Shown here: positions 13,771 to 64,000 of the stretch, piece by piece
Layout of the letters: each line of letters starts with the position of its first letter
Numbering within the stretch: the stretch's first letter is position 1
Assembly (NCBI GenBank): GCA_963422465.1
Contig: OY730171.1
Location: 3,720,001-3,784,000, forward strand
Direction: 5' to 3'
DNA: 64,000 bases
Origin: Lichina pygmaea
Lineage: Eukaryota > Ascomycota > Lichinomycetes > Lichinales > Lichinaceae
Translations under genes and position numbers: made by a program
The notes under the pieces: generated by a model
The model's database searches: none
The model's input: the letters and a program-made list of their open reading frames with translations, nothing else
Told to the model about the DNA's origin: nothing

Positions 13771-14449
13771 AGTACTGCTATTAGGTATTTCATGAATCTG
13801 TCCACAATCACCATAATTAAGTTGTAGGTGATTCCGGTGACTGGATCTTTAGACTTGGGTAGCTTTGTGATGAAGTCCATTAACACATCTTCCTAAGAGC
13901 CTCTTGGTATTGTGTTCAGGTGTCTTTCTCTGTATGGCTTATGTCTTCCATGTTTGTTTTTCTGGCATAGTAGACACTTGTTGATGTAGCTTGTGACATG
14001 TTGTCAGAGGTTAATGATATTGTTCCCTACCTGTTGGATAAGGTCTGTGGTTTTGGTAATTCCTGGGTGACTATGTGCTGGATTATTGTGGTAGTTCCTT
14101 ATTAGTTCTTCAGTGTCTTCTGCCATGAGCTTGTTGATCTGTAGTTGAGGTACCAGGTTTCCTTGCTGGTCCTGCTGTAAGATTATTCCTTGGTGTTCAT
14201 CATCTTCCATGTGGTTTTTTTGTCAGCTTAGTGTGTCTACTCTCCCATTGTCTTGTCCAAGGGTGTACAAGATCTTGAATTTATGTTGCCCTAGGAGTTC
14301 AGCCCATCTGACTTGTTGTCTGTTCAGCTTCTTGGTTGTTGTGAACATTGTCAGATTCTTGTAGTCTGTGAGAATGGTGAGTTCAGAACTGCTTTCTGCG
14401 TACACTCTCCAGTGTTTGAGTGTGTTGACGACTGCCAGTAGCTTTTTGT

Positions 14450-43527: not shown

Positions 43528-44780
43528 CATATTTGCTGGGGAAGGAGTTTCCTTGTCTCCTGGGCCTGTGTTTGAATGTCTTCGGAGCAGGCGCCCTTTC
43601 GTTTTGCATCTGATGTCTAATCCAAGAATAAGAACGAGAAGAATCTGATTGGGCGTTGCCCTCGAAAAAATGGAACCGTTTCCGACACTGATCTCTACTG
43701 TGCTTTGAGTACTAGAGAGGAAATGATAGCACTCGTCGTCAACGGCCAATCCTTTGTAATGCTTGCTCCATGAGTCCCATGACACCGACGAAGCCAATAC
43801 TGAAAGCTGAAAGCTGACGATTGAGGCTTTGCGCTGATTTTCCAAGAATCAAGGCAATGCTACCTACATGCTGTGTTCACAGTGTATACGGTACATAGAT
43901 CTACGAGAAATTGATCAACAGTCTACTCCCGTCTTTCCCACCTCCCCATCACCTTGCCGATTCCTGCTCGATCTAGTAGTTGCGGTACGGACGTAGACGC
44001 AGAGAGTGGGGGGTAGATTCGGAGCCTGTTCTGCTTGGCGACGGAAAACCAAAGTCAGAGCTGCGTAACCTACAGTAAGAGCTCGTCGAGCCATCCCCTC
44101 GAACAAAGAATTTTCAAAAGTGTGAGTTTGATGCTTGCGCTAATTAATTAAAGATCACCGATTGACCATATTATTTTTGGTCTACGGTACGTAAGAGGTA
44201 GCCAGCCGTCACAGCAAAAAAGATCTTTACCACTGCCGCCTCTGCCGCCGCCACCAACCCAACTCAAATCCATCGTGTTCCCACCACGACGGTTGCTGCC
44301 CTGCAGTACGTCGGCGCTGCCGGCTGCTCGAGTTGGGTCTTTGATGGGCAGCAGCTATATGTATAGAATTCACATCCTACCCTTCATCTATACATTTCCA
44401 TCGCATCCCTCCTAAGGGATGTCGAGCTCGACGACATCTTGTCGTATCCCCGTCATACTGGAGCCTACTGCCGCATCAAGCTCACGGGAGTACGAACCTT
44501 CTGAAGAGTCACATGTTTCGAAAGAGCTCTCTGATGACAGTGATATAGAAATGTCGGAGACGTGGTAACTGTGAACACATCATCAACAGCTACATGATGG
44601 CAGAACCTTCAAGATGGTCGACATACATTCCCGCACGCGAGACCGCTCGCTCTCTTGCAAACTCCACCGGCGGGTGGTTGTCCAGTGATTGACGGAGGAT
44701 CTGTATCCTCCCCATGTGAATATACCTGGTGGTGTTAAGGTAAACAAATCAACCGATTTCTTGAACTTTTATATTCTTCT
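43528..44780. other. 3' flank of BUR1 and truncated tandem-repeat unit
   Basis: No gene seen in 43528-44635. The segment 44640-44780 is similar to 62085-62236 (shared CTCTCTTGCAAACTCCACC and CTGGTGGT blocks). It is the end of a tandem repeat whose next unit was separated by insertion of the chimeric element. Confidence 0.5.
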
Positions 44781-44793
44781 ATGTTGTGAAAGC

Positions 44794-45932
44794 GGCCTGC
44801 GACGACTCAAACCTCCACGCGGTGCAGGCTGGGAACCTCGGGGCAGCGATGGCAGGCAGTCTCCCAAGCTGCTTGTAGTCGCTGCACCGAGAGCTAATTG
44901 AGTCACCGGTCGAGCTGCTGGTGCCCGTGGAGCGACGGGCCACCGGAGGTGTCGCGCAGGCACCCTGGACACCCCCGTGAAGCGACATCAGCAGAACAGA
45001 GGACTGCGACCAAACTGGTTATGAAAACCACCCGACGGATGTCTACCGTGTACGCTACGGCCCGAAGCCAGCCCTGCAGCTGGTGGATGTGAAGTCTAGG
45101 CATCCGACAGGGCACCTCTGGAGTAGTTGAGAGGAGTTTTCATCGCACAACCCTCCTAGCAGAGTCTCCAGCAGCTAATGCGTCGAGGATCTTGTTCTAG
45201 GAGGGGAGCGATATCTGCACTGCGGCATTGTTAATCGAACGGGGAATAGGTGTTCAAGAAGGCGAGCAGGCAGCCCGGAGGAAGCCCGCCGCTCCAGTGC
45301 CTAAGGGCCGTGTGATAGCCAAAGTGCTGGCTTGATGGTTTTGCCTAAGGCCTTGCCACGGGTTCCCTTCGGACTGCCTGCGGACCGGGGCCGGGGCACC
45401 GGAGATTCTCTGTTCGGAGGTTCTCCGGTGGGTCACCACGTACAACCGGGGCCCCACAGGCGACAGTGGGCAGATTGAGACTCCTCCCTACTTGGTTAGT
45501 GGGCTGGAAAGGCGGTCCTGCAGGTGCTGGCATGGCCTGCAGGGTCCGTAGAGCCTGCGAGGCATGGTCGGCCTCTGTACGAGAGATCTACAGAGGTAAC
45601 ACGAAACAGCGAGAGCTGCGGGGTGTGGCATATAATGGCAGTGACAGCAGTAGGGTCTGGGCCTACTACGAGACTGTCTATATGGCCCGAGAGGACGGAA
45701 GTGCATGCCGGTCCGTACAGAGTGCAGGTTCAGGCTGCAAATGACGGGCTCAAGGAGCAAACTGTAGTTGGAGTGTGGGCTCCGGGCTGGCAACCCAGCG
45801 CTCCGAAGCAGGACCTAGGGGTGAGCGTACATGGCAGAGCGCAAAAGGCCTCAGGACTGCGGGGAAGCGTGCCAGAGACCCTGCACGGGATGTCGACTCT
45901 GCGCTATGTCTTGGCATAGCTCAACTGTGGCC
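44794..45932 (+). repeat. Sequence X, copy 1 (1,139 bp)
   Basis: It begins GGCCTGCGACGACTC and ends CTCAACTGTGGCC, where LINE B begins. It aligns end to end with the inverted copy at 55759-56884, mostly differing at CG sites. A frame of about 131 codons (45524-45919) is shared by both copies, but I recognise no domain. It is not part of the LINE A 5' region as seen in copy A1. Size and arrangement recall the WEIRD part of the Magnaporthe MINE chimera; I could not compare sequences. Confidence 0.85.
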
Positions 45933-46766
45933 TGGACATGGTGGCAGCTTTCCCCAACATGTCACACAACCACCTACTGCACATCCTCTGGTGAGACAGA
46001 GTCCCCACAGCACTTGTACGGTGGACAGCCAGCTTCCTCGCAGACCGCCAGACCTCTCTGGTCCTGGGACAGTGGCAAGGTGATACCCACAGGGTCTCCA
46101 CCAGCATCCCACAGGGGTCCCCAGTCTCCCCGATCCTGTTTCTGTTCTTTAACAAAGAACTAGTTGACTTCTGCACACACAGCACAGGCAAGGTGTTGGG
46201 CATCAGGTTTGTTGATGATGTTAATATACTGGTAGTGGGCAGCAGCACTGAAAACAACTGCCAGGTTCTTGAACATGTCCACCACAGCTGCATGGGGTGG
46301 GCACACCACCACGGGGCCACCTTCACCCCACACAAATACAAGCTTATGCACCTCACCCAATCTCCGAAGAAATTTAACATGACTGCAGGGGTGGACCTGG
46401 GAGGTGTCACCAAATCCCCACAGCCAACCCTCCGCATACTCGGTGTACTCCTGGACTCAAAGCTCCGCTGGGGCCCACACATGAAGTGCATGTCAGAGAA
46501 GGCAGCACAACAGAGCTGGGCTCTCACCACCATCACAGGGTCCACCTGGGGTGTGATGTTTGGCAAGGCAAGACTGATTTACAACACAGTGGTGCACCCA
46601 GTGATCACCTACAGCATGATAGTGTGGGCCCCCCTGGAAGGCCTCCTCTGACCAGCACACCAACACTGGATTGGTGACACCCTGGAACACCAATAGCAAC
46701 ACTGCCTCCAAACAGTCACTGGTGGCTTCAAGGCAACCAGCTGGCAACAACTGGAAAGTGAAGCAG
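45933..46766 (+). pseudogene. LINE B reverse transcriptase fragment, first part
   Basis: The LINE B RT domain starts mid-domain (DMVAAF) and continues through IPQGSPVSPILFLFF, the catalytic FVDDVNILVV and the thumb (RLIYNTVVHPVITYSMIVWAPLEG). A stop codon (TGG to TGA-type change) and others interrupt it. The sequence resumes at 53268 after gypsy V. Confidence 0.85.
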
Positions 46767-47346
46767 TGTTACGACCCAGGAGGAACACAGTCTTTATATA
46801 CTCACAGAAAGCAGCAGACAGGATACTGGACGGAAGTACCAGACAGCGTGACACAGGAACCGGTCACGTGACCGGTGAGACAAACCAGGGGGTGCTCGCC
46901 GCAGCATGCATATGCACGAACAAGTGAGCAAAGTGAGCAGAGCTCACCCAGCTCGCCGCAGCGTGCATGAAAAGTGAGCAAAGTGAGCAGAGCTCACCCA
47001 GCTCGCCGCAGCGTGCATGAAAAGTGAGCAAAGTGAGCAGAGCTCACTTATCTCACCGAGTGAGCAAAGTGAGCAGAGCTCACTCTGCTCACGAACTGGA
47101 CACTATATAGTCCGGCGATAGTTCCCCTATGGAACGATCGTCTTCAACTCATGTTGTGATCCAGACAACTAGATCTACTTCAATACAATCCTTTTGTACG
47201 AAGCCGTTGATCAGGTGTCACCACCACCACGTTCCACCAAACCCCTTCGCGCTCCTTGACACTCCTCTCCTGCGAGAACCAACCCGCCTTCCGCCTCTCG
47301 CCCTAATCCTATACTCGGATAGGACGGTACGGTACGGACCGCAACA
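46767..47346 (+). repeat. 5' LTR of gypsy V (A-type U3)
   Basis: 580 bp, from TGTTACGACC to CGCAACA. U3 has tandem 50-bp units (46920-47090) with GAGCAAAGTGAGCAGAGCTC and CATGAAAAGT. The sense TATA (CTATATAG) lies at 47103-47110. Confidence 0.95.
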
Positions 47347-47364
47347 CTTTGAAGACCCTCAAGG
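47347..47364 (+). promoter_or_regulatory. Primer-binding region of gypsy V, possible self-priming
   Basis: The 18 bases between LTR and gag ATG do not begin with TGG, as a tRNA-primed site would. TTGAAGAC at 47349-47356 is complementary to GTCTTCAA at 47140-47147, about 30 bases after the sense TATA box, where the transcript should begin. That matches the self-priming layout known for Tf1/sushi elements. The pairing is 8 nt, shorter than the 11 of Tf1. Confidence 0.5.
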
Positions 47365-48864
47365 ATGAGTACCTCAGGAGCAACCAACCCCAACTTCCCA
47401 GATGGAAAGATTAGCGTCGCCAAGCCAGACCTGTTCTACGGCGAAAGAAACAAGGTCGACGACTGGCTCATGCAACTCCAAGTCTACTTTCAATTCCAAC
47501 CAGAGACAAAGCTGCCTAAGGAGAAGTGGCCCCTCTTCGCAACCACTTACATGAGAGGCAATGCTTATCGATGGATCAAGCCCTACGTCAACAAACATCT
47601 CTCAGGGAACGGAGACCACGACGGCACAACGGAATGGATGACAAAATGGACGCGATTCAAGGACGAGATCAAAAGGATCCTTGGACCATCTAACGAAGAC
47701 AAAGTGGCTATACGAATGATCCAGCACATCAAACAACGACGCTCAGCCGCAGAGTACACCACGCAGTTCAAACAATACTCAGTACTGACCGACTGGGACG
47801 ACGACGCCCTGATGGTCATGTACCGACGTGGACTCAAGGAAAACGTGAAGGATGAGATCACCTTCGACGGACGAGCAGTTGACACACTGGATGAACTCAT
47901 CGCACAAGCAATCGACATCGATGACAAGCTATTCGAGCGAGCGATGGAGAAACGCCACGACGGAGGATACAGCCGCCCCGCATGGCATGTGAGCAACCAC
48001 TACAAGCCGCCTAACAAGGCACCACCACATGATCCATATGGCTATGCACCCATGGAACTGGATGCAGTCCACCACAAGGGAAGGTTCACGAAGGGAAGGA
48101 ACAACAAAAAGGGGAAAGCACTGAAGTGCTATGCCTGTGGCAAGCTAGGCCACATGGCGAAAGACTGTCGTTCAAAGAACAAGGTGCACCGACAGCAACT
48201 TAATACGCTCGACGGAGACTGGAATGTCATCGAGCCAGAGGACCCACCAGGAGAGGCTCAGCTATCCCTCGAACAATGGGACGACTACGATCAGATATTG
48301 GAAGCAGCCCACCAACTGGCAACATCAGGAGGCAAGGACCTACCAGAACTAACAGGTCAGGACAAGGGACAGGAGCCCTTAACCACCTCTGATGGGGACC
48401 GAGACGAACCCGCGTCTATCAAAGAAGAAATACCACGAGGAAGCTATGCTTACAGCATGGACCCACGAAATCTACGGCACGGCGAACTACAGTGGAGGTT
48501 TTGCACGAAGCACTACTGCACCTACCACGAACAACTACGAAGGTACGGAGGACATTCACCCTACCACGCCACCTGCCACAAGCATTGGGTCAATTGCGAG
48601 AAGGATGCGTGTGAGATCCATCTTTGGGACAAACGCCAACACACCGCATTCCCCGGGCACACACATGATTGGCACGAACGCCTCATGTTCCTACAGCAAG
48701 GCAACAACTACAACTGCTACATTGACAATTGGCAGTACTGCCTCAAGCCTGGATGTGACAAGCATCAGCAAGACAAATTCATGAACGGATTCCTCAGAAC
48801 TGATGGGAATGGCTGGACCCATTGCCCAGTCAGTGGTAAGACACTTCGATCGGGAAAAGACTGA
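47365..48864 (+). CDS. Gypsy V gag
   Basis: 499 residues starting MSTSGATNPNFPDGK, 18 bases after the LTR. The retrotransposon gag domain occupies about residues 30-215. A CCHC knuckle CYACGKLGHMAKDC is at 255-268. The unusual C-terminal region has three repeats of W-x2-C-x4-C-x2-H at 377-388 (WRFCTKHYCTYH), 408-419 (WVNCEKDACEIH) and 456-467 (WQYCLKPGCDKH), plus a final W-x2-C. It forms the particle and binds RNA. Confidence 0.93.
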   Translation: MSTSGATNPNFPDGKISVAKPDLFYGERNKVDDWLMQLQVYFQFQPETKLPKEKWPLFATTYMRGNAYRWIKPYVNKHLSGNGDHDGTTEWMTKWTRFKDEIKRILGPSNEDKVAIRMIQHIKQRRSAAEYTTQFKQYSVLTDWDDDALMVMYRRGLKENVKDEITFDGRAVDTLDELIAQAIDIDDKLFERAMEKRHDGGYSRPAWHVSNHYKPPNKAPPHDPYGYAPMELDAVHHKGRFTKGRNNKKGKALKCYACGKLGHMAKDCRSKNKVHRQQLNTLDGDWNVIEPEDPPGEAQLSLEQWDDYDQILEAAHQLATSGGKDLPELTGQDKGQEPLTTSDGDRDEPASIKEEIPRGSYAYSMDPRNLRHGELQWRFCTKHYCTYHEQLRRYGGHSPYHATCHKHWVNCEKDACEIHLWDKRQHTAFPGHTHDWHERLMFLQQGNNYNCYIDNWQYCLKPGCDKHQQDKFMNGFLRTDGNGWTHCPVSGKTLRSGKD

Positions 48865-48902
48865 ACTCCCTTGTCAAGGGGCGACATCAGGAGCTCAACA
48901 AC

Positions 48903-51900
48903 ATGACCCCTAGCAACGCAAAGCACCTGCGATTGCCTGTGTCACTACATGCCAACACGCCAGTACAGACATACGCACTTGTTGACTCTGGAGCCAGTGG
49001 AAACTACATCTCAAGACAACTTTACGATACCCTCGGCACTGGAAGGAGACGCAAGCAGCAGCCCTATCAGCTCGCGATGGCAAATGGACAGACAGAGCTA
49101 GTCTGCCATGAGACGCAGCCAATGGAAATGGTTACCGGACACCATGCTGAAAGGATCCACCTTGATATCGTCGAGTTGGCCACTCAGGATATCTATTTAG
49201 GGATGCCTTGGCTAAAGAAGCACAACCCAGTTGTTAACTGGAAGACAGGAGTACTCACATTTAGGAACTGCACTAACAACACAGCTCGGACCTGTTACCA
49301 GCCGCAGAAGGCGTGGACAGATGAGGGAAGGAGTTCTCAGTGGAACCTCACCGACAGAAAGGACGACTCTCAAAAGAAGAGGTCCGCCTCGACAGGCACA
49401 CCCCGGAACCAGGTGGCCAAACAGTCAGAGATGAAGAGAGAGGAAGTTGTTAACCCTCTGGAGATCCCTGAAGAGTACCGACCTGGGTATGATAACCTCT
49501 TTCAGGAAGAGACAACGACAGCAGCGTTGCCTAAGCACCAACCTTGGGATCATGAGATCAAGTTGCAACCAGGGACGGAGCCAGGATTTGGACTAATTTA
49601 CCAGTTATCAGAGAAAGAGCTCCAAGTACTTCGCGAGTACCTGGAGGAAAACCTGAAAAAGGGTTTCATTCAAGAATCTCAATCACCAGCAGGATACCCG
49701 ATACTATTTGCACCAAAGAAAGACGGAAGTCTTCGACTTTGTGTGGATTACAGGAAACTCAACGACATTACCATCAAAAACCGATATCCGTTGCCAAATG
49801 CGAACGAATTGCGAGACAGGATCAGTCAAGCTACAATCTTCACCAAGCTGGACTTGAAAGGAGCATAAAACCTGATACGCATGAAAGAAGGAGAAGAATG
49901 GAAGACAGCCTTCAGAACCCGATACGGACACTACGAGTATCTGGTTATGCTATTCGGACTCACGAACGCACCAGCAACATGTCAAGCATTGATCAACAAC
50001 GTCATCAGAGCACACCTGGACCAAACAGCTATCGCCTACCTGGACAACATTCTTGTCTACTCGAACACGCAACAGGAACATACCAAACATGTGAAGGATG
50101 TTCTACGATGCCTACAAAAGGCAGGGCTCAAGCTCAACCCGAAGAAATGCGAGTTCAACAAACCGGAAGTTGAATTCCTCGGATACATCATAGGGATTGA
50201 AGGGATCAAGATTGACCCTGAGAAAATCAAAGCGATTCAGCAATGGCCAACACCGACATCAGTTAAGGAAGTACAAGCCTTCCTAGGATTTGCCAACTTC
50301 AACCGACAGTTCATCAAGAACTACTCACAGATGGCAACTCCACTGACAGAACTCACGAAGAAGAACGTGGAGTACCGGTGGACGGAGAGACAACAAAAAG
50401 CATTCCAACAGCTCAAGGACACTTGCGCCAAGGAACCAGTTCTCCTCAACTTCAAGACAGGCCAACCGACGCGAATTGAAACAGACGCTTCAGACCAAGC
50501 AGTGGGAGCATGTCTATGCCAACAGGCAGACGGCAAGTGGCACCCAGTTGCCTACTACTCACGCAAAATGTCACAAGCGGAACGAAACTATGATATCCAC
50601 GACAAAGAGCTACTGGCAGTCGTCAACGCACTCGAACACTGGAGAGTGTACGCGGAAAGCAGTTCTGAACTCACTGTTCTCACAGACCACAAGAATCTGA
50701 CAACATTCACGACAACCAAGAAGCTGAACAGACGGCAAGTCAGATGGGCTGAACTCCTCGGGCAACACAAGTTCAAGATCTTGTACACCCCTGGACAAGA
50801 CAATGGGAGAGCAGACGCACTAAGCCGACGAAAAGACCACATGGAAGATGATGAACGCCAAGGAACGATCTTACAGCAGGACCAGCAAGGAAACCTGGTG
50901 CCTCAACCACAGATCAACGAGCTCACGGCAGAAGACACTGAAGAACTAATAAGGAACTACCACGATAATCCAGCACATGGTCACCCAGGAATCACCAAAA
51001 CCACAGACCTGATCCAACGGGCAGGGAACAATGTCATCAATCTCCGACAACACGTCACAAGCTACATCAACAAATGTCTACTATGCCAGAAAAACAAGCA
51101 TGGAAGACATAAGCCATACGGAGAAGGACACCCGAACACAATACCGAGAGGCCCGTGGGAAGGCGTGTCAATGGACTTCATCACAAAGCTACCCAAGTCC
51201 AAAGACCCAGTCACAGGAATCACCTACGACTCAATTATGGTGATTGTGGACAGATTCACAAAATACCTAATAGCGGTACCATTCAAGGAAACCCACACAG
51301 CAGAACAGTTGGGACACCTCTTACTGGACAGATTGGTCAGAGACCACGGAGTTCTGATCACAATCATTACAGACAGAGACAAACTCTTCACATCCAACTA
51401 CTGGAAGACAATCAGTGCAGCCATGGGAACAAAACCCAAAATGTCTACGGCCTATCACCCACGAACCGACAGCCAGACGGAGCGAGCGAACCAAGTCCTG
51501 GAGACTTACCTACGGCATTACATCAACAAAACCCACAGTAATTGGGTACAGTTATTACCGGTGGCACAGCTGGCAATCAACCAGCACAGATCAGACTCAA
51601 CAAAGGAATCGCCATTTTTTGCCAATTTTGGACGACATGCAAACATCGGGATGCCAAGCAGAGCTTCACCAAACGCGGAGAAAGCACTCCAACACGACAA
51701 GCTCCTACGACAAACGCACACGATGATGAGGCACTACCTTCAAGAGACCTCAGAAAGAATGCAACGCCAAATGGACAAGAAATCGAAAATGGCACCTCAG
51801 CTGAAGAAGGGGGATAAAGTCTACCTCCTCACAAAAAATTGGAAAGCCAAGAAACCAAGAACAAAGAAACTGGACTATGTCAAGGTCGGACTATTTTCAG

Positions 51901-52235
51901 TCGAAGAAAAAACCGGACCAGTCAACGTCAGACTGCGACTACCAAGGGATGCCAGAGTCCATCCAAACTTTCATATATCAATGATTGAACCAGCCGACCA
52001 GAGCACACCCTTGCAGGAAACATTTCATCACCAACCCGAAGAAGAACAAGAGTTCGAGGTTGAACAGATCCTGGCTAGAAAAGGTCAGCAATACCTCGTC
52101 AAGTGGAAAGGATACCCAGACTTGGAGAATACCTGGGAACCACTCAAGAACCTCGCGAACTGCCAGCTTCTTCTGCGACAGTTTCGGCAGGAGCAGGACC
52201 GAACAGCTCGGCCTGCAGGAGGGACGCGTCAATGA
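48903..52235 (+). pseudogene. Gypsy V pol region: protease, RT, RNase H, integrase, chromodomain
   Basis: In order: aspartic protease (LVDSGASGNYIS), reverse transcriptase (YRKLNDITIKNRYPLP, IAYLDNILVYS), RNase H (ETDASDQAVGACL), integrase with an HHCC-type zinc site (about 50980-51090) and a D,D-35-E-type core (DFITKLPKS, YHPRTDSQTERANQ), and a C-terminal chromodomain (YLVKWKGYPDLENTWEP). The chromodomain marks it as a chromovirus that probably targets modified chromatin. Pol is in a different frame from gag and starts 38 bases after the gag stop. About one break. Confidence 0.93.
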
Positions 52236-52644
52236 CTGATCGAGTCAAATCCTCGCCATCCGACTCCATCTCTTTCACCAAGCACTGAAGCTTCTGCCTC
52301 GCACAGACCTCGGCGCCCTCCAACACCTTTCGTTTCCGAGACAGACGAGCCTGCACTGTGGCAAGTTGTTCAAAGAGTGCATCACGTGTTGCCTCGTCAG
52401 CGGCAACATCCTCACGGAGGTTGTCCCGGGACATGTTCAAAGATTCCCAGGACACAGAGACACAAGACCTTCCACGCCGAGTGCACGCAGCACATTTCAA
52501 CTTATCGTCTTCTCCCGGCATCTGGAAGCATGGACGACCACGGAGAACACAAAAGTCGCAGGGCGTACGCGAAACAAAACCCCGATCGCGAATTTGAGCA
52601 GCCAGCTGAGTTCGGCTAACAGTCGCACGTGACTTTGGAGGCAT
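52144..52644 (-). CDS. Antisense Zn2Cys6-type protein of gypsy V (166 aa)
   Basis: The ORF is on the opposite strand to gag-pol and overlaps the last 92 bases of pol. It begins MPPKSRATVSRTQLAAQIRD. The cysteines are spaced C-x2-C-x6-C-x11-C-x2-C-x6-C (CDFCVLRGRPC, then CAACTRRGRSC), inside the fungal Zn2Cys6 consensus. A helix-rich segment follows (about residues 75-125, LFEQLATVQARLSRKRKVLE), which could be a dimer coiled coil. There is no activation domain. The related frame in gypsy II keeps all six cysteines. A DNA-binding or regulatory role is inference. Confidence 0.75.
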   Translation of the reverse strand: MPPKSRATVSRTQLAAQIRDRGFVSRTPCDFCVLRGRPCFQMPGEDDKLKCAACTRRGRSCVSVSWESLNMSRDNLREDVAADEATRDALFEQLATVQARLSRKRKVLEGAEVCARQKLQCLVKEMESDGEDLTRSVIDASLLQAELFGPAPAETVAEEAGSSRGS

Positions 52645-52713
52645 GACCAGATTTCATCGAGATGATGAAAGATGGAGAGGAGGATAGTGTTACGACCCAG
52701 GAGGAACACAGTC

Positions 52714-52721
52714 TTTATATA
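52714..52721 (-). promoter_or_regulatory. Antisense TATA box (TATATAAA) near the outer LTR edge
   Basis: On the minus strand it lies 70 nt before the antisense ORF start at 52644, so a transcript would begin near the LTR boundary. The equivalent in gypsy II is TATAAATA at 7370-7377, 72 nt before its ATG. In the 5' LTR the same box would face outwards into flanking DNA. Confidence 0.65.
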
Positions 52722-52779
52722 CTCACAGAAAGCAGCAGACAGGATACTGGACGGAAGTACCAGACAGCGTGACACAGGA

Positions 52780-52797
52780 ACCGGTCACGTGACCGGT
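52780..52797. promoter_or_regulatory. 18-bp perfect palindrome with CACGTG core in the LTR
   Basis: ACCGGTCACGTGACCGGT reads the same on both strands; the 5' LTR copy is at 46859-46876. It combines a CACGTG E-box with CCG/CGG half sites, the triplets typical of Zn2Cys6 dimers. It lies about 60 bp upstream of the antisense TATA box. The core GTCACGTGAC also occurs in B-type LTRs. Confidence 0.75.
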
Positions 52798-53267
52798 GAG
52801 ACAAACCAGGGGGTGCTCGCCGCAGCATGCATATGCACGAACAAGTGAGCAAAGTGAGCAGAGCTCACCCAGCTCGCCGCAGCGTGCATGAAAAGTGAGC
52901 AAAGTGAGCAGAGCTCACCCAGCTCGCCGCAGCGTGCATGAAAAGTGAGCAAAGTGAGCAGAGCTCACTTATCTCACCGAGTGAGCAAAGTGAGCAGAGC
53001 TCACTCTGCTCACGAACTGGGCACTATATAGTCCGGCGATAGTTCCCCTATGGAACGATCGTCTTCAACTCATGTTGTGATCCAGACAACTAGATCTACT
53101 TCAATACAATCCTTTTGTACGAAGCCGTTGATCAGGTGTCACCACCACCACGTTCCACCAAACCCCTTCGCACTCCTTGACACTCCTCTCCTGCGAGAAC
53201 CAACCCGCCTTCCGCCTCTCGCCCTAATCCTATACTCGGATAGGACGGTACGGTACGGACCGCAACA

Positions 53268-53655
53268 AGCAGCAGTCCCACCACTGCGGGTGCACATGGC
53301 ATGACTACAGCTGCAAGCACATGCCTGCATAGAGGCCTCGGGTGCCCAGGCAGAAGTCCAAGACACCTGCAACTGACTGCGACACCAACTGGCCCCAAGA
53401 CAGGGCCACCGGCACTGCGCAGGTGCCACGCTGGGCCAAACACAACACCAGTGGGTCAAATCAATACTCTGGCCCCACTGAGAATTGGAACCCACAACAG
53501 GACAACTGGGCACCCCCCTGCGGGCTGACAGCCCCCTGAACAGCACCTTCCCAGGCACCCCCCCTCAATCCACCTGGCAGGCACGCCAGCTGGCAGAACA
53601 ATAGTGCTGGAAGTGATGGAACAAGCTACACGGAGGCCCCCCACCAAGGGCTCAA
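53268..53655 (+). pseudogene. LINE B ORF, middle part after gypsy V
   Basis: It continues the LINE B C-terminal coding region (VPPLRVHMA and following) from 46766 and ends at the CTCAA duplication where gypsy IV is inserted. It is related to the B2 copy at 63345-64000. Confidence 0.75.
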
Positions 53656-53796
53656 TGTTGCGATCCGTACCGTGCCGTCCTAACCGAGTATAGGATTAAG
53701 GGCAAGATGCGGAAGGCGGGTTGGTTCTCGCAGGAGAGGAGTGTCAAGGAGCGCGAAGGGGTTTGGTGGAACGTGGTGGTGGTGACACCTGATCAA

Positions 53797-55758
53797 TTTA
53801 TTTATTTATTTATTTATTTTATTCTTACACTGATTTAGCTGTAGAGCCATGCAGAACTTCTAGGTACATGTTTGTTTCTCCAGAAAACCTTTGGAGGAAT
53901 AAAAACTGGAGCTTGGGAGAGACTAGGGAAAATCTTGTGGAATATGCAGTAGCTAAGGAAATTTGTACATGTAGCTATTTGTTAAAACAAACAGTTGACT
54001 TGGTAGAGCTTAGAAAGAGAGTTGGTGGGCTAGGTTGAACTGGTCAAGTCTTTTCAAAGACATAAACCAGAAAAGAAGTTTAGGAAGTAGCTTGGAGGAG
54101 AATAAGATAGATGGGAAATCTTGTAGAGGGAATTGGACTTGTTGTCTTTGGTTTGAAAATTTGTTACAGAAAAAAGTGATGTGTTGGGCTGTTTCTTCTC
54201 CAAAACCACATGTGCATAGAGGGGAGTTAAAGTCTGGAACATTTGCTCTGAAAAGAAAACTGGCCAGTCCTATTCTTGCTGACAGAATTTGAAGAAATAG
54301 ACTAGACTCAGCTTTTCTCAAATCTTTGAAGATATTGAGGTTTTTCTTCTGTGGCCTTCTGGTGAACATGTCCCAAATAGCAGAACAATTTCCTCTGCTT
54401 ACCTGCCATCTGGCTTCCCATTCTTTGTGGAAAACCTCCTGTAGACTTTTCTTTGAGAAGTCTTGGTTAGTAGTTAGTTGTTCCAGCCAGACTGTTCTCC
54501 AGTTTAGAGAAATAGTTGTCAGAGACTTTGGTGTAGTTCTGAGAGAAGAAACATGGAGAGAAATTTGACTGTGTAGTTTGTGGAGAAGTGTAGAAGGAGA
54601 GTTGGGTAGTGTGTTTGAATAGAAAGATGAAAGAAAACATGCTGTTCTCAGCTTGAAGTATAAGTCTAGAGGGGGTAGAAATAGTTCTGATTCAAGTAGG
54701 AAAATAGGAGTGGCTTTAAAGACACCTCCTATAGTTCTTAAACATTTATTTTGGAAAGTAGATAATAAAATAATATTAGAGAGTTTCTTTTGGGGATTGA
54801 ACCAGACTCCTACTGCATAACTAAGAAGAGATCTTAGTATAGCAGTGTAGACATGACGTGCTGTTAGGACTGGTAGTCCCCAAGTAGAGTAGGTTGTTCT
54901 GGATAAAGCTGAGAAATATTTGGAGGCTTTCTGTGACATGATTTTTTGGTGTTTTTTCCAGACAAGTTTTGAGTCAAAGTAAAGTCCCAAGATGCGCACT
55001 TCTTCTTTTGGTTGAAGTACCACTTCTCCAAGTCTTAGACTGAGCTGAAGATTGTCTCTTCTTCTTCTAGAAAAATGGAGAAGTTCATACTTTTCAGGTG
55101 CAAACTTCATACCATGTTTTCTTGCCCAGTCCTGACATTTGGAATGTGTAGACTTCAACTTGAGAAGGTTGCTTTTCAAGGAGGAGGAGAATGCAAGAAG
55201 ATTAGTGTCATCTGCAAAACCAAGTGCTGAAACTCCTTTCTCAGGGGTGTGTACAGTATTGTGCAGTTCTGAGATATAGAAAAGAAATAGAATAGGAGAG
55301 AAAGGTGATCCTTGAGGGACTCCACAGTATATAGGGAACTGGGGGGATTCTGAGTCATCAAACACCAGAGAGGTAGTGTGTGAAGTAGTGAAGGAAAAGA
55401 TCCAGGATACAAACCACTTAGGAATCATTCTCTTAATCAGGATCTTTCTGAGAACTTCTGGCAAGACTCTGTCATAGGCTCCAGAGATGTCTAGAGAGAG
55501 AAGACTAGCAACCATTCCTTCTTTCCAGATCTTTTCTACCTGGGAGGTCAGAAGAAAAAGTGCTGATTCTGTTGATCTTCCTTTTCTGAATCCCATCTGG
55601 ATTTCTGGCAAGAGATTTTCTTTCTCAGCTAGTTCACTTAGTCTTGCAGCTGCAATAGCTTCCATTAGCTTCCCAATTGTATTCAGGAGAGCTATAGGGC
55701 GCCATGCTTTTGCTTGACAGTAGGATCCCTTGCCAGGTTTCCTTAGGCAGATTGTCTT
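53797..55758 (-). mobile_element. LINE A3 part of chimera 2, RT open
   Basis: RT and C-terminal region in one open frame (stop at 54010), from KTICLRKPGKG to FNLAHQLSF. It includes IQMGFRKGRSTES, YCGVPQGSPFSPILF, GFADDTNLLAF and the C-terminal CTCGFGEETAQHITFFC motif. It is a subfamily distinct from A1/A2. There is no CG from about 54001 to 54850, yet the frame is intact. The 5' end of the LINE is missing; upstream codons come from X. Confidence 0.88.
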
Positions 55759-56884
55759 GGCCACAGTTGAGCTATGCCGAGGCATAGCGCAGAGTCGACA
55801 TCCTGTGCAGGGTCTCTGCCACGCTTCCCCGCAGTCCTGAGGTCTTTTGCGCTCCACTGTGTACGCTCACCCCTAGGTCCTGCTTCGGAGCACTGGGTTG
55901 CCAGCCTGGAGCCCACGCTCCAACTGCAGTTTGCTCCTTGAGCCTGTCATTTGCAGCCTGAGCCTGCACTCTGTACAGACCGGCATGCGCTTCCGTCCTC
56001 TCGGGCCATATAGACAGTCTCGTAGTAGGCCCAGACCCTACTGCCGTCACTGCCATTATATGCCACACCCCGCAGCTCTCGCTGTTTCGTGTTATCTCTG
56101 TAGATCTCTTGTACAGAGGCCGACCATGCCTCGCAGGCTCTACGGACCCTGCAGGCCATGCCAGCACCTGCAGGACCACCTTTCCAGCCCACTAACCAAG
56201 TAGGGAGAAGTCTCCGTCTGCCCGCTGTCGCCTGTGGGACCCCGGATGTACGTGGTGGCCCACTGGAGAACCTCCAGTGCCCTAGCCCCGGTCTGTAGGT
56301 GGCCCGAAGAGAATCCGTGGCAAGACCTTAGGCAAAACCATCAAGCCAGCACTTTGACTATCACACAGCCCTTAGGTACTGGAGTGGCGGAAACCCTTTG
56401 TGCCACCTGCTCACCTTCTTTAACATGTAGTCCCCGTTCGATTAACAACACTGCAGTACAGACATCACTCCCCTCCTAGAACAAGATCCTCGATGCATCA
56501 GCTGCTGGAGACTCTGCCAGAAGGGGGGTGTGCGATAGGAACTCCTCTCGTCTACTCCAGAGATACCCTGTCAGGTGTCTAGACTTCACATCCACCAGTT
56601 GCAAGGCTGGCTTCAGGCTGTAGTGTACACGGTAGACATCCGTCGGGTGGTTTTCATAACCAGTTTGGTCGAAGTCCTCTGTTCTGCTGATGTCGCTTCA
56701 CGGGGGTGTCCAGGGTGCCTGCACGACACCTCCGGTGGCCCGTCACTCCACGGGCACCAGCAGCTCGACCGGTGACTCAATTAGCTCTCGGTGCAGTGAC
56801 TACAAGCAGCTTGGGAGACTGCCTGCCATCGCTGCCCCGAGGTTCCCAGCCTGCACCGTGTGGAGGTTTGAGTCTTCGCAGGCC
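55759..56884 (-). repeat. Sequence X, copy 2 (1,126 bp)
   Basis: The inverted counterpart of 44794-45932, beginning GGCCTGCGAAGACTC at 56884 and ending CTCAACTGTGGCC at 55759. It shares a frame of about 135 codons (55772-56179) with copy 1. Confidence 0.85.
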
Positions 56885-59800
56885 TCTGGTACCGCTATTA
56901 GGTATTTGGTGAATCTGTCCACAATCACTATAATTGAGTCGTAGGTGATTCTGGTGACTGGGTCTTTGGACTTGGGTAGCTTTGTGATGAAGTCCATTGA
57001 CATGTCTTCCCAAGGGCCTCTTGGTATTGTGTTCAGGTGTCCTTCTCTGTATAGCTTATGTCTTCCATGTTTGTTTTTCTGGCATAGTAGACACTTGCTG
57101 ATGTAGCTTGTGACATGTTGTCAGAGGTTAATGATATTGTTCCCTGCCTGTTGGATAAGGTCTGTGGTTTTGGTGATTCCTGGGTGACCATGTGCTGGGT
57201 TATCGTGGTAGTTCCTTATTAGTTCTTCAGTGTCTTCTGCCATGAGCTTGTTGATCTGTAGTTGAGGCACCAGGTTTCCTTGCTGGTCCTGCTGTCAGAT
57301 TGTTCCTTGGCATTCATCATCTTCCATGTAGTCTTTTTGTCAGCTTAGTACATCTGCTCTCCCATTATCTTATCCGGGGGTGTACAAGATCTTGAACTTG
57401 TGTTGCCCTAGGAGTTCAGCCTATCTGACTTGTTGTCTGTTCAGCTTCTTGGTTGTTGTGAACATTGTCAGATTCTTGTGGTCTGTGAGAATAGTGAGTT
57501 CAGAACTGCTTTCTGTGTACACTCTCCAGTGTTCAAGTGTGTTGACAACTGCCAGTAGCTCTTTGTCATGGATATCATAGTTTCATTCTGCTTGTGACAT
57601 TTTGCGTGAGTAGTAGGCAACTGGGTGCCACTTGCTGTCTGCCTGTTGGCATAGACATGCTCCCACCGCTTGGTCTGAAGTATCTGTTTTGATTTGTGTT
57701 GGCTGGCCTGTCTTGAAGTTGAGGAGAACTGGTTCCTCAGCGCAAGTGTCCTTGAGCTGTTGGAATGCTTTTTGTTGTCTCTCTGTCCACCGGTACTCTA
57801 CGTCCTTCTTTGTGAGTTCTGTCAGTGGTGTTGCTGTCTGTGAGTAGTTCTTGACAAACTGTCAATTAAAGTTGGCAAATCCTAGGAAGACTTGTACTTC
57901 CTTGACTGATGTCAGTGTTGGCTATTGCTGAATCACTTTGACTTTCTCAGGGTCAATCTTGATCCCTTTGATTCCTATGATGTATCTGAGGAATTCAACT
58001 TCCAGTTTGTTAAACTCATATTTCTTTAGGTTGAGCTTGAGCCCTACCTCTTGTAGGTATCGTAGAACATCCTTCACATGTTTAGTATGTTCCTGTTGTG
58101 TTTTCGAGTAGACAAGAATGTTGTCCAGGTAGGTGATAGCTGTTTGGTCCAGGTGTGCTCTGATGATATTGTTGATCAATGCTTGACATGTTGCTGGTGT
58201 GTTTGTGAGTCTGAATAGCATAACCAGATACTTGTAGTGTCTGTATCAGGTTCTGAAAGCTGTCTTCCATTCTTCTCCTTTTTTCATGCGTATCAGGTTG
58301 TATACTCCTCTCAAGTCCAGCTTGGTGAAGATCATAGCTTGGCTGATCCTGTCTCGCAATTTGTTCGCATTTGGCAACAGATATCAGTTTTTGATGGTAA
58401 TGTTGTTGAGTTTCCTGTAATCCACACAAAGTCGAAGACTTCTGTCTTTCTTTGGTGCAAATAGTATCAGGTATCCTGCTGGTGATTAAGATTCTTGAAT
58501 GAAACCCTTTTTCAGGTTTTCCTCCAGGTACTCACAAAGTACTTGGAGCTCTTTCTCTGATAACTGGTAAATTAGTCCAAATTCTGGCTCTGTCCCTGGT
58601 TACAACTTGATCTCATGATCCCAAGGTTGGTGCTTAGGCAACACTGCTATTGTTGTCTCTTCCTGAAAGAGGTTATCATACCCAGGTCAGTACTCTTCAG
58701 AGATCTCCAGAGGGTTAACAAATTTCTCTCTCTTCATCTCTGACTGTTTGGCCACCTGGTTCCAGAGTGTGTCTGTCAAGATGGACCTCTTCTCTTGAGA
58801 GTTATCCTTTCTGTCAGTGAGGTTCCACTGAGGACTTCTTCCCTTATCTGTCCATGCCTTCTACAGCTGGTAACAGGTCTGAGCTGTGTTGTTAGTGCAG
58901 TTCCTAAACATGAGTACTCCTGTCCTCCAGTTAACAACTGGGTTATACTTCTTTAGCCAAGGTATCCCCAAATAGATATCCTGAGTAGCCAACTTGACGA
59001 TATCAAGGTAGATCCTTTCAGCATAGTGTCCGGTAACTATTTCCATTGGCTACGTCTCATGGCAGACTAGCTCTGTCTGTCTATTTGCTATCATGAGCTG
59101 GTAGGGCTACTGCTTGTGTTTCTTTCCAGTGCCAAGAGTGTTGTAAAGTTGTCTTGAAATGTAGTTTCCGCTGGCTCCAGAGTCAACAAGCACGTATGTC
59201 TGTACTGGCGTGTTGGTGTGTAGTGACACAGGCAATCGCAGATACTTTGCATTGCTAGGGGTTATGTGGTTAAGCTTCTGATGTCGCCCTTTGACAAGGG
59301 AGTTCAGTCTTTTCCTGATTGAAGTGTTTTTCCACTGACTGGGCAATAGGTCCAGCCATTCCCATCAGTCCTGAGGAATCTGTTTATGAATTTGTCTTGC
59401 TAATACTTGTCACATCCGGGTTTGAGGTAGTACTGCCAATTATTGACGTAGCAGTTGTTGTTGTTGCCTTGCTGTAGAAACATGAGGTGTTCGTGCCAGT
59501 CATGTGTGTGCCCGGGGAATGCGGTGTGTTTGTGTTTGTCCCAAAGGTAGATCTCACACACATCCTTCTTGCAATTGACCCAATGCTTGTGGTAGGTGAC
59601 GTGGTAGGGTGAATGTCCTCTGTACCTTTGTAGTTGTTTGTGGTAGATGCAGTAGTGTTTCGTGCAGAACCTCTACTGTAGTTCACTATACTGTAAGTTT
59701 TGTGGGTCCATGCTGTAAGTATAGCTTCCTCGTGGTATTTCTTCTTTGATAGACGTGGGTTTGTCTCAGTCCCTATCAGAGGTGGTTAAAGACTCCTGTC

Positions 59801-60820
59801 CCTTATCCTGACCTGTCTGTTCTGGTAGGTCCTTGCCTCCTGATGTTGCCAGTTGGTGGGCTGCTTCGAGTGTTTGATCGTAATCATCCTATTGTTCGAG
59901 GGATAGCTGGGCCTCTCCTGGTGGGTCCTCTGGCTTGATGACATTCCAGTCTCTGTCAAGTGTATTAAGTTACTGTCGGTGCACCTTGTTCTTTGAACAA
60001 CAGTCTTTCGCCATGTGGCCTAGCTTGCCACAGGTATAGCACTTCAGTACTTTCCCCTTTTTATTGTTCCTTCCCTTCGTGAACCTTCCCCTGTGGTAGA
60101 CTGCATCTAGTTCCATGGATGCATAGCTATATGGATCATGTGGCGGTGCCTTGTTAGGTGGCTTGTAGTAGTTCTCACATGCCATGCAGGGTGGCTGTAT
60201 CCTCTGTCGTAGTGCTTCTCCATCACTCGCTTGAATAACTTGTTGTCAATGTTGATTGCTTGTGTGATGAGCTTGTCCAGTGTGTTGACTACTTGTCTGT
60301 CGAAGGTGATCTTGTCCTTCATGTTTTCCTTGAGTCCACGTCAGTACATGACCATCAGGGCATTGTCATCCTAGTCAGTCAGTACTGAGTATTGTTTGAA
60401 CTGTGTGGTATACTCTGCGGCTGAGTGTTGTTGCTTGATGTGCTGGATCATTCGTATAGCCACTTTGTCTTTGTTAGATAGTCCAAGGATCCTTTTGATC
60501 TTGTCCTTGAATTGTGTCTATTTTGTCATCTATTCTGATGTGCTGTCGTGATCTCTGTTTCCTGAGAGGTGTTTGTTGATGTAAGGCTTAATCCATCAGT
60601 GGGTATTACCTCTCATGTAAGTGGTTGCAAAGAGTAGCCACTTTTCTTTAGGCAGCCTTGTCTCTGGTTAGAATTGAAAGTAGACTTGAAGTTGCATAAG
60701 CCAGTTGTCAACCTTGTTCCTTTCGCTGTAGAACAGGTCTGGCTTGGTGACGCTAATCTTTCCATCTGGGAAGTTGGGGTTGGTTACTCCTGAGGTACTC
60801 ATCCTTGAGAGTCTTCAAAG

Positions 60821-61424
60821 TGTTATAGTCTGTACCGTGCTGTCCTAACCAAGTATAGGATTAAGGGCGAGATGTGGAAGACAGGTTGGTTCTCGCAGGA
60901 GAGGAGTGTCAAGGAGCACGAAAGGGTTTGGTGGAATGTGGTGGTGGTGACACCTGATCAATGGCTTCGTACAAAAGGATTGTATTGAAGTAGATCTAGT
61001 TGTCTGGATCACAACATGAGTTGAAGACAATTGTTCTATAAGGGAACTATCACTGGACTATATAGTGCTGGCCTGTCAAGATGATCAAGATTGTCTTGAC
61101 AGTCTTGACGTCAAGACGGGTGAGATTGTCTTGACAGTCCCACCATGTTATGCACCCTGCGTCAAGACCGGTGAGATTGTCTTGATGCTTCATGCACGCT
61201 GTGTCAAGACGGGTGAGATTGTCTCGATGCTTCCTGCACCCTGCATCAAGACTGGTGAGATTGTCTTGATGCTTCATGCATGCTGCGTCGAGCCACCCGT
61301 GTTTGTCTTGACAGTCACGTGACCCTTTGTTGGTTTGGTCACTTGACTTTCTATGGTGTCCTCTTGCCTGGCCCGCGGCCTGATTGCTTATAAATGAGTG
61401 GCTCCTATCCCAGGGATTGTAACA
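60821..61424 (-). repeat. 5' LTR of gypsy IV (B-type U3)
   Basis: 604 bp. Four B-type tandem units lie at about 61080-61300, GTCACGTGAC at about 61311-61320, and TATAAATG at about 61390. The CTCAA duplication follows. Confidence 0.88.
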
Positions 61425-61429
61425 CTCAA

Positions 61430-62009
61430 CTGCTGGACCCAGACCCCAGAGGAGGAGACAACTGGAAGCCGGACAAGATGCCATACTTGGCATCTCTCCA
61501 GCTTCACACTGGCTTGTTGAAGGCTCAAAGCAGCATCCTGACACAGGTCCGCACAGGTAAGATTGGGCTGGCTGCCTTCCTCTGCAAGCGGTGGGTCCCT
61601 GGCTTCCCGACACTGGCCTGCAGCTGTGGAGCACAGTGGGAAATAGCTAGACATGTAGTTGTTGCCTGCCCCCACCTCCTGCATGCCCGCTGCAGCCTAT
61701 AGGCAGCGGCATCCACCACTGACTACCAGGTGATGACTTCACGACTGTGGCCTGCCACTGCCCTCACAGTGTGGATCCTCCACCACAGTGTCCTTCCCCA
61801 GTTCTCCTGGGCTCAGGAGCAGCTGGAAGCTGGCTACTAGATAGCCACCCCCCATGTTCTACAGTGACTTGACAGGATAGCGCTGGTGAGGCACTGCAGG
61901 GAGAGGTTTTTTACTTGTTTGAAGTTTTCCTAGCCTAGTTCTATAGTAGACCCAGCATAGTCTAGTCACACTAGCACTAGAATAGTGTAGGAATTTAACC
62001 AACCAACCA
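61430..62009 (+). mobile_element. LINE B 3' end of chimera 1
   Basis: Encodes the C-terminal zinc-like motif CSCGAQWEIARHVVVAC, then a 3' UTR ending GTAGGAAT, then a TTAACCAACCAACCAA tail. The 13-bp target duplication follows at 62010. Confidence 0.88.
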
Positions 62010-62010
62010 A

Positions 62011-62310
62011 TGTTGTGAAAGCTTCGCTGTTGACGCTTTTCTCTTTTGGGACTGAACAGGGCCATGGAGGCCTGGACACCTTTGTCCAGGGAGACCGCTC
62101 TCTTGCAAACTCCACCAGTGTGTGGTTGTCTAGCGATTGACGGAGAACTCGGTTTCTCCCTGTGTGTATATATATCTGGTGGTCTCAAGATAAAGAAGAT
62201 ACCTGAGTCCATGAACTTTCATCTTCTTCTAGGGTGTTAGAGTGTCGCTGTTGACACTGTTTTCACTTAGGACTGACGCACGTCATGGAGGCTTGGAAAC
62301 CAAGTCTGCT
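62011..62310 (+). repeat. Tandem repeat of about 226 bp (target locus of chimera 1)
   Basis: One full unit (62011-62236) and the start of the next (from 62237) share GTCGCTGTTGAC/TTCGCTGTTGAC and CATGGAGGC. The preceding unit's end is at 44640-44780 on the other side of the insertion. I see no gene in it. Confidence 0.6.
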
Positions 62311-62812: not shown

Positions 62813-64000
62813 TATGTATGTATGTATTCCTACTCCATTCTAAAACTAGGTAGGCTAGATTATGCTGGGAAGACTATATAGTTGGTAAGGAAAACCTCAG
62901 GTCACATCTACATGACCAAGGGCGAAAAACCTCCCCTGCGGCCCCTAGGCGGTGGCCATCCAGTCGAGTCGCTATGAACTGGTGGATGACTGCGCTGCAG
63001 TCAGGCAGGGGGAAGCTGATCTTGGACCAAGGAAAACTGGGGGAGAAGGTTCAGCTGAAGGAACCACGTTGTCAGGGCGGTGGCGGCCCGGGGGTTAGAG
63101 GTTAGCTGCTGGAAGTCAGTGGTGGCAGCTGCCAGTCGCAACCACCTCTGTTCAATGTGAAATCTGGGGCAGTCCAGCACTATGTGTCGGGCTGTTTCTT
63201 GGTGCCATCCACAGGGGCAGGCCGGGGACTCGAAGCCGGGTACCCGGCAGGTGTGCAGGAAGCCTGCCAGTCCAATCTTCCCTGTGCAGATCTGGGTGAG
63301 TAAACTATTTTGTGGCCTCGGGAGATCGGCGTGGAGGCGGAGGGTCACTGCCTTGTACGGCATCTTCTCTGGTCTCCAGCCTCCGCCAGGGTCGGGGTCG
63401 GTGCTGCGGTGGGGGACTGGTGGGCCTCCTTTGAGTTCTTGCCAGTGATCCCAGCACTATTGCTCGGCCAGTTGGTACGCCTGCCACAGGGACTGTGCAG
63501 GTGGGCGCCTATCCGGCGGGTGGGTGGTTGCCGGGCAGGGGTTGTCTGACCATGGGGGAAGGCCCAGGTTTGTTGCAATGGACTCCAGGCGGCGTTGTTG
63601 TTGCCAGAGGATCCTCTTGGCCCAGTCGTGCTTCTGCCTCCGCTGGCGTGGGTCCGGGGGTGCGGTGGGGCCCGCGCTGTGGCCTGAGTTGGTCTTGTAG
63701 GCGGCGGCATGCAGTACTGATTTCCTGCCGGGCCCCGGAGGCTTCCATCCGAGCGCGGGCTTGGAGCTAGAGGCGCGCTATGTGGGCTTGTAGTGGGGGT
63801 ACGGCGGCTTCGTGTTCGAGTACAGGCCTGCTGGTGGCCTTAAAGGCGCCGGTGACTGCCCGGAGACACTGCTGTTGTACTCGTTCCAGGGGCTTGCCTA
63901 TCCAGTGTCGCTTTGCCGGTCGGAGGGTGCCATTGAGCGGGGCTCAGACTGTCGCGCCGTAGGTGAGGCATGGGCGTACCACCGCTGGGTAGACACCGTA
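62813..64000 (-). mobile_element. LINE B, copy B2, 3' part (cut by window edge)
   Basis: The minus-strand 3' end has a (ACAT)n tail (62813-62826), a 3' UTR, the C-terminal motif CPCGWHQETARHIVLDC (in 63001-63363) and the RT thumb towards 64000 (CLTYGATVWAPLNGTL). It extends beyond the window. The frame is broken in places. Confidence 0.88.

Follow-up and report, generated by a model that had tools for sequence, protein, structure and literature searches.

A 64,000-nucleotide stretch of the Lichina pygmaea genome (assembly GCA_963422465.1, contig OY730171.1, positions 3,720,001 to 3,784,000 of the forward strand; hereafter the window) carries a sequence of about 1.1 kb, which we call X, directly upstream of a 5'-truncated long interspersed nuclear element (LINE), LINE B. 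This locus raises the question of how an unrelated sequence came to stand at the head of a LINE. Our analysis of the window and of the whole genome (32.47 Mb in 8 contigs) leads us to an answer that we consider likely: X is a discrete RNA whose 5' end is made by its own ribozyme, and LINE reverse transcriptase lands on its 3' end.

The first-pass annotation of the window had read X and LINE B as a single molecule with X at the 5' end, on the strength of a 13-bp duplication before X and after the LINE B tail, and had proposed that the two gypsy elements now separating these ends entered later. All of this holds. The 13-mer, ATGTTGTGAAAGC, has exactly two exact matches in the window with both strands scanned, one adjoining X base 1 and the other adjoining the (CCAA)n tail of LINE B, and two further matches with 2 mismatches. 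An uninterrupted relative of LINE B elsewhere in the genome (L017), which also has an X at its head and is flanked by a 13-bp duplication of its own, aligns in order to 46258-46764, 53269-53645 and 61427-62011. Each gypsy element splits LINE B with its own 5-bp duplication (AGCAG at 46762-46766/53268-53272, and CTCAA at 53651-53655/61425-61429, counted by eye from the alignments). When the left flank, a single 13-mer and the right flank are joined, they align to an intact neighboring unit with 157 of 207 positions identical and 4 gap positions, none of them at the join. This empty-site alignment, with its single 13-mer in the empty state, rules out that the 13-mer is a chance match or a tandem-repeat copy. 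Since LINE B is one split element and the empty site is seen in the neighboring unit, X and LINE B arrived together in a single molecule; a single insertion, followed later by the gypsy elements, is thus supported. The target (44648-44793 and 62095-62300) is a unit of a local tandem repeat.

Genome-wide, X has two fixed ends. Its 5' end (up to 3 mismatches) is found at 232 places, X-C heads included, compared with 1 for the control, and its exact 3' end at 217 places (119 + 98), compared with 0. The viral contigs contain no exact match to a 23-base X pattern. We examined the best-scoring matches of two genome searches (L001-L060), 6 of which are duplicates, leaving 54 distinct copies of subfamilies A and B. 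All 54 start at X base 1, 51 with GG and 3 with AG, and BLAST alignments of X copies stop at X 1137-1139. Of 53 A/B copies, 50 terminate in CTGTGG and the other three in a one-base variant; L052, which is not among the 53, ends in CAACTGTGG. A hairpin precedes the 3' tail; its outermost pair is G-C in almost all A and B copies, and in the five X-C copies it is A-U. X-A measures 1124 nt in 30 of 30 copies, X-B 1128-1157 nt in 24 copies and X-C 1117-1118 nt in two full copies, the last being about 80-83% identical to the other subfamilies. There are at least four lineages (A, B short, B long and C). Starts at base 1 are also the rule in X-C (19 of 20 stretches), with one 5'-truncated stretch, L080; this X-C copy (L080/L097) lacks the first ~235 nt, and no X precedes it in the 860 bases examined. 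Among 198 listed X 3' ends, 80 are of C type or similar, 69 with the tail TACG (X-C) and 11 with TACA in place of CTCA or TACG. At least two TACA-tailed copies (C2:4531606 and C5:1449129) carry heads without mismatch to the A/B pattern, and the TACA tails may mark a further, fifth subfamily or X-X recombinants.

X is non-coding. A Pfam search with two X open reading frames (ORFs) gave nothing over the cut-offs (best expectation value (E) 0.033). Between B and C, the frame of the 131-aa ORF of X1, the X copy ahead of LINE B, contains three single-base gaps in 393 nt, and changes number 24, 21 and 15 at codon positions 1-3. The null Pfam result, the single-base gaps and the lack of a third-position excess rule out that X is a protein gene. 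The predicted fold energy of X1 is -518 kcal/mol, against -469 (standard deviation 9) in 10 mononucleotide shuffles. No indel separates the 30 X-A copies. They depart from the majority base of their column 600 times; C>T and G>A make up 536 of these changes, and 464 of the 536 fall at CpG. A single recent source whose copies then decayed at CpG would be expected to leave this pattern. Classical repeat-induced point mutation acts at CpA; the CpG-centered decay is unlike it and may reflect CpG methylation of repeats in Lichina pygmaea. A non-coding, structured sequence with discrete ends, whose A copies resemble those of a single source, might be a housekeeping RNA, an abundant bystander acceptor and not a selfish one, much as small nuclear RNA (snRNA) and tRNA are known acceptors. 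This idea is compatible with the mechanism proposed below and deserves serious consideration, but we give it less than an even chance: X comprises at least four lineages, with tails hinting at a fifth, and its predicted 5' ribozyme (below) is of a kind known from mobile elements.

X is joined mainly to LINEs. The LINE relatives (120 of 898 listed) carry, among those listed, RVT_1 and PF14529, presumably of endonuclease/phosphatase type. When LINEs are classed by the GC content of 250 nt with a cut at 0.52, X-A is followed by LINE-A-type sequence in 28 of 30 copies and by X-C in the other 2, and the 24 X-B copies by LINE-B-type sequence in 21 cases and LINE-A-type in 3. The first-pass annotation had raised the possibility that every full-length LINE B begins with X. 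This does not hold: X is found at many LINE positions, in two LINE groups or more, and its 3' end is the same throughout. A related idea is that X is the native 5' untranslated region of a LINE, ribozyme-bearing like those of R2 and L1Tc, and that the chimeras are internal deletions. HDV-like (hepatitis delta virus-like) ribozymes do head R2 and L1Tc, and all 28 X-A copies joined directly to a LINE have LINE-A-type partners. Deletions would vary both sides of the joint, however, whereas the X 3' end is fixed at 217 exact places and only the LINE side varies; X-B has partners of both types, and a solo X exists. We consider this explanation very unlikely.

The junctions themselves were listed for 198 of the 217 3' ends (98 of 98 from the W search and 100 of 119 from the S search) and comprise 169 distinct 12-mers. 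LINE-only sequence of other copies matches 133 of the 198 with at most 2 mismatches, and 0 of 198 shuffled 19-mers; the number placed rises to 147 when a match of a locus to its own start is allowed, and to 158 with a library including the whole window on both strands. The first junction base is C in 144, T in 45, A in 5 and G in 4, with CC in 109. In the 98 distinct junctions with natural LINE context, CC, TC and CT come next in 48, 22 and 14, against 5.9, 7.5 and 8.9% at random LINE positions. Where a longer LINE copy was available for comparison, the LINE sequence that precedes the junction shows no relation to X: identity is at control level, and there is none in 77 of the 98. A fixed X 3' end facing many LINE acceptor positions is also what trans-splicing of X to LINE RNA would give, but AG precedes the junction in only 13 of 98 (control 6.9%), which makes that route vanishingly improbable. 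Some junctions are shared: one occurs both in an X-A copy and in a copy with the TACG tail, another in an X-A and in an X-B copy (L033 and L005). Junctions common to different X types imply that those sites were used more than once. LINE 3' ends number 839 of A type (control 0) and 265 of B type (control 6), as counted with short patterns that left some LINE tails uncovered. Set against these, the counts of X ends suggest that, very roughly, X heads about a fifth of LINE insertions.

A target-site duplication of 9-15 bp lies right after the LINE tail in 19 of the 54 distinct copies, with up to 1.5 kb of flank examined. There were 27 raw matches of at least 8 bp, of which five 8-bp ones were dropped and three (L013, L039 and L046) were rejected because they were not at the LINE tail; the remaining 27 copies gave no match of at least 8 bp. 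The survey of other X copies, their 3' partners and their duplications that the first-pass annotation had called for thus yields many LINE positions and two LINE groups. Two loci, L050 and L056, are double chimeras of X-A and a truncated X-C, and the listed X 3' ends suggest a third at C2:4320845-4321955.

Can X also insert alone? Six stretches at five places were examined as candidates. One, L081, is a solo X-C lying within a copy of LINE-A type; it is flanked by a 16-bp duplication, has no LINE tail and ends ACTGTGG directly before the duplication, which begins TC. The first-pass annotation had held that X alone with its own duplications would make it part of LINE B. Such a copy does exist, once, but it shows X as a mobile unit of its own and not as a part of LINE B. 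Other candidates were discarded: in L082 and L083 X continues straight into sequence common to the LINE parts of other chimeras, and L085, the 3' side of an X-B whose 5' side is L084, matches the LINE part of L010. L086 gave distant matches only.

The exact 5' boundary of X coincides with a predicted ribozyme. HDV-like ribozymes are defined by a nested double pseudoknot of P1-P4 with a 7-bp P1 starting at G1, and their catalytic C lies in J4/2 within C-N-R-A. X has this double-pseudoknot layout with a 7-bp P1 from G1. In X1 the elements are P1 GGCCUGC/GCAGGCU, P2 GACUCAA/UUGAGUC, P3 ACC/GGU, P4 CUCGG../..CCGAG and J4/2 CUAA, which fits C-N-R-A. Cleavage is predicted at 44793/44794, exactly at the X1 boundary; because the fold starts at X base 1, predicted cleavage coincides with the boundary of the element. 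The covariance model RF00094 matches at 44792-44866 with 31.2 bits (E 0.51, 24 kb searched; curated threshold 50). In the genome-wide search (85 matches listed; 86 of 1614 candidates scored) X1 reached 40.9 bits (E 0.0023) and the best X copy 43.9 bits (E 6e-4), and nine of nine inspected matches outside known X coordinates proved to be X. A fold descriptor, composed after inspection of X, matches the window only at 44794 (+) and 56884 (-), which are base 1 of its two X copies, and gives 0 matches in 12 window shuffles (mononucleotide, 500-base blocks). Across 247,140 bases it matches 50 of 60 loci (44 of the 54 distinct copies), and all its matches there begin at X base 1; they are not independent, since the 60 loci were chosen by similarity to X. 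Among 75 X 5' ends, 40 of them distinct, each P1 pair is kept in 74 or 75 and J4/2 CUAA in all 75. One pair of P2 occurs either as A-U (55 copies) or as G-C (20), and L064 has an additional double change in P2. Taken together, fold and boundary suggest that the X 5' end would be made by its own predicted ribozyme.

A ribozyme also raises the possibility of a self-cleaving circular RNA, viroid-like or retrozyme-like, in which it would make both ends. One ribozyme and precise unit-length copies are in keeping with such an RNA. Yet no head-to-tail X-X joint was found with a 0-12 nt spacer (all known heads, exact patterns only), and the predicted X1 fold is branched and not a rod. We give this reading very little credence.

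From the boundaries, fold, copy number, junctions, duplications and solo copy described above, we infer that X RNA is cleaved, that it exists as a free molecule and that it is joined to LINEs by template jumping, not by RNA ligation. X would be a discrete RNA of about 1.12-1.16 kb, structured and non-coding, copied into DNA. The HDV-like ribozyme in its first ~111 nt would cut before the first G and free X from a containing transcript, and the RNA would have a fixed end in ...ACUGUGG, perhaps with CC or UC added, downstream of the terminal hairpin. LINE reverse transcriptase would start by target-primed reverse transcription of LINE RNA at the nicked target and would quit that template, mostly where the last-copied LINE bases are CC, TC or CT. 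It would then land on the X RNA 3' end and copy to the ribozyme-made 5' end, where insertion would be completed. The expected product is X plus 5'-truncated LINE plus tail within one target-site duplication. X RNA may be left midway for a second X, or may serve alone as the target-primed template; X would thus spread through an acceptor 3' end and not a LINE-like tail. The CC/TC/CT bias could arise through pairing of the cDNA with an X RNA 3' end reading GGCC or GGUC, or if the reverse transcriptase prefers stopping there. The duplication of the solo copy starts with TC, which leans toward pairing, in one case.

An alternative order of events is that RNAs are ligated first: X RNA, bearing a 2',3'-cyclic phosphate, would be joined to 5'-OH LINE RNA fragments by an enzyme of the tRNA-ligase type, and the chimera then reverse transcribed. 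An RNA ligation origin has reportedly been argued for mammalian U6-L1 chimeras. Ligation would account for the exact X 3' end at junctions and for the lack of microhomology to X upstream of them; it allows double chimeras, and the junction bias could reflect an RNase preference. The solo X-C, with TC as its next bases, instead suggests LINE machinery starting directly on the X 3' end, though in one case, and we regard ligation as unlikely.

A further step can be proposed tentatively, as something short of an even chance. X would be a 5' hitchhiker, a self-freed selfish RNA with a dedicated 3' landing end whose copies are re-transcribed and trimmed; it would parasitize LINEs at the template-jump step, not through a mimicked tail, and could switch LINE hosts. 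A ribozyme-capped 5' end may help LINEs finish insertions.

Several observations weigh against the ribozyme and template-jump reading. All RF00094 scores, among the 85 matches listed, lie below the curated 50-bit threshold, and sub-threshold matches (E up to 10) also occur in 4 of 14 control genomes. The descriptor fails in 10 of the 60 loci. Mismatches occur in three P2 pairs (6, 1 and 4 of 75), in P3 (2) and in outer P4 (up to 4), and the covariation in P2 amounts in essence to a single event between subfamilies. Outside the chimeras no gene that could be the source of X was recognized, which also counts against a housekeeping RNA. In the LINE-only library, 65 of 198 junctions are unplaced, and there is no hairpin excess upstream of junctions (mean minimum free energy -7.17 against -7.44, p 0.71). 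Copies that share a junction may be re-copied chimeric RNA instead of new jumps. Finally, the second chimera of the window, described next (53797-56884), has no visible target-site duplication at its locus.

That second chimera lies within gypsy 2 and joins another X copy, X2, to LINE A, a LINE other than LINE B (Table 1). Judged against gypsy 1, gypsy 2 lacks ~1.8 kb at this point, from the end of the integrase region to part of a long terminal repeat (LTR), and the event looks like an insertion accompanied by target deletion. The RVT_1 match of LINE B piece 1 is weak (E 0.0067) and under the Pfam cut-off. An X-free, 5'-truncated LINE-A-type copy at 14445-16356 (-), in gypsy-like sequence, begins GAAACC and has a near-identical duplication of ~14 bp by eye. 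A further LINE with a (CATA)n tail lies beside the X1-LINE B chimera at 62816-64000 (-) and extends past the window end. The LTRs of the gypsy elements (46923-47102, 52844-53023 and 61151-61311) contain short internal repeats, AGTGAGCAA units and 42-bp TCAAGAC units, which differ between the elements.

Table 1. Features of the two X-LINE chimeras and their surroundings in the window
Feature	Position	Strand	Basis
X1, subfamily B copy, 1137 nt, non-coding	44794..45930	+	start and end common to compared X copies
Predicted HDV-like ribozyme fold of X1	44794..44904	+	RF00094 match, descriptor scan, pair counts
X1 3'-terminal hairpin, 7-bp stem, then 10-nt tail UCAACUGUGG	45903..45920	+	tail comparison
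Left target-site duplication copy, 13 bp	44781..44793	+	exact match only here and at 62010; empty-site alignment
Right target-site duplication copy, 13 bp	62010..62022	+	exact match; empty-site alignment
LINE B piece 1, 5'-truncated, junction GTGG|CCTGGACATGG	45931..46766	+	alignment to L017 relative
LINE B piece 2	53268..53655	+	alignment to L017 relative
LINE B piece 3, with (CCAA)n tail	61425..62009	+	alignment to L017 relative
Intact neighboring repeat unit (empty site)	62095..62300	+	alignment of joined flanks
Gypsy element 1 (gag, reverse transcriptase, RNase H, integrase, chromodomain)	46767..53267	+	5-bp duplication AGCAG
Gypsy element 2, interrupted and partly deleted at X2-LINE A insertion	53656..61424	-	5-bp duplication CTCAA
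X2, subfamily A copy, 1124 nt; predicted ribozyme fold 56884-56774	55761..56884	-	90% identical to X1
LINE A, 5'-truncated, junction GTGG|CCAAGACAATC, tail (AAAT)n	53797..55760	-	RVT_1 E 4.8e-35; relatives

How does X compare with known systems? The closest is MINE of Magnaporthe, to which the first-pass annotation had likened the layout; the likeness is borne out by X on many LINE positions in two LINE groups, and extends to size, double switches and a C-rich junction motif. In Magnaporthe, MINE made up 31 of the 33 bipartite chimeras, to which a single tripartite chimera was added, with no solo WEIRD; WEIRD is 1113 nt long, the junction motif is GCC*A/U and the duplication 10-20 bp (PMC2104539). 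Both systems have a full-length copy of a non-coding RNA of ~1.1 kb 5' of a same-strand, variably 5'-truncated LINE, with one duplication round the chimera, double switches, many junction sites and no source gene found. WEIRD has been viewed as an abundant bystander acceptor, and pause hairpins were predicted for MINE junctions (PMC2104539), whereas X junctions show no hairpin excess upstream. Two WEIRD primers and one MINE primer, three 20-mers in all (PMC3978060), match X no better than shuffles do. X differs from MINE in copy number (217-232 X ends, against 33 bipartite chimeras and one tripartite), in its several subfamilies and two LINE groups, in one solo copy with its own duplication and in a 5' HDV-like fold. 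What is new here is this fold, which the first-pass annotation had not noted. The portions of the MINE paper available do not contain the word ribozyme, and give no account of how the RNA 5' end forms or why one RNA is chosen so often (PMC2104539); we found no paper linking WEIRD or MINE to a ribozyme in the open-access literature. If WEIRD shares it, an HDV-like ribozyme at that exact end would explain the formation of the 5' end.

U6, in contrast to X, is encoded by a conserved snRNA gene and is not known to carry a ribozyme at its 5' end. Mammalian U6-L1 chimeras resemble X in placing a full-length structured RNA ahead of a 5'-truncated LINE, and have short direct repeats (PMC2104539). X also differs from short interspersed nuclear elements (SINEs), whose own tail mimics a LINE 3' end, in that the solo X-C ends ACTGTGG right before its duplication.

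Ribozyme-headed non-autonomous parasites of LINEs are already known, as fixed composites or as native LINE 5' ends. Pr77 in the L1Tc/ingi elements of trypanosomatids is an HDV-like ribozyme hallmark common to elements of that LINE clade (PMC4035085), and is thus, unlike X, the native 5' end of a LINE clade. The R2 SIDE and the R2/R1 hybrid SIDE of Drosophila combine a 5' HDV-like ribozyme with the 3' part of another LINE, and R2 jumps in vivo to tRNA and U12 (PMC3414825). SIDEs are like X in joining the HDV-like 5' end of a non-autonomous element to a LINE 3' part. They are fixed composites of R2 ribozyme and LINE 3' end, whereas X sits on many LINE positions and has no known parent LINE; its variable junctions and two LINE groups set it apart from an internal-deletion composite of the SIDE type. 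In R2, insertion is more efficient when the template carries a stable HDV-like fold at its 5' end (PMC11331408), which offers a reason why a ribozyme-type 5' end would be favored. Overall, X provides a natural set of 169 distinct junction 12-mers, with CC, TC or CT preferred, for studying LINE template jumping, and suggests that besides SINEs there are parasites of the LINE 5' end.

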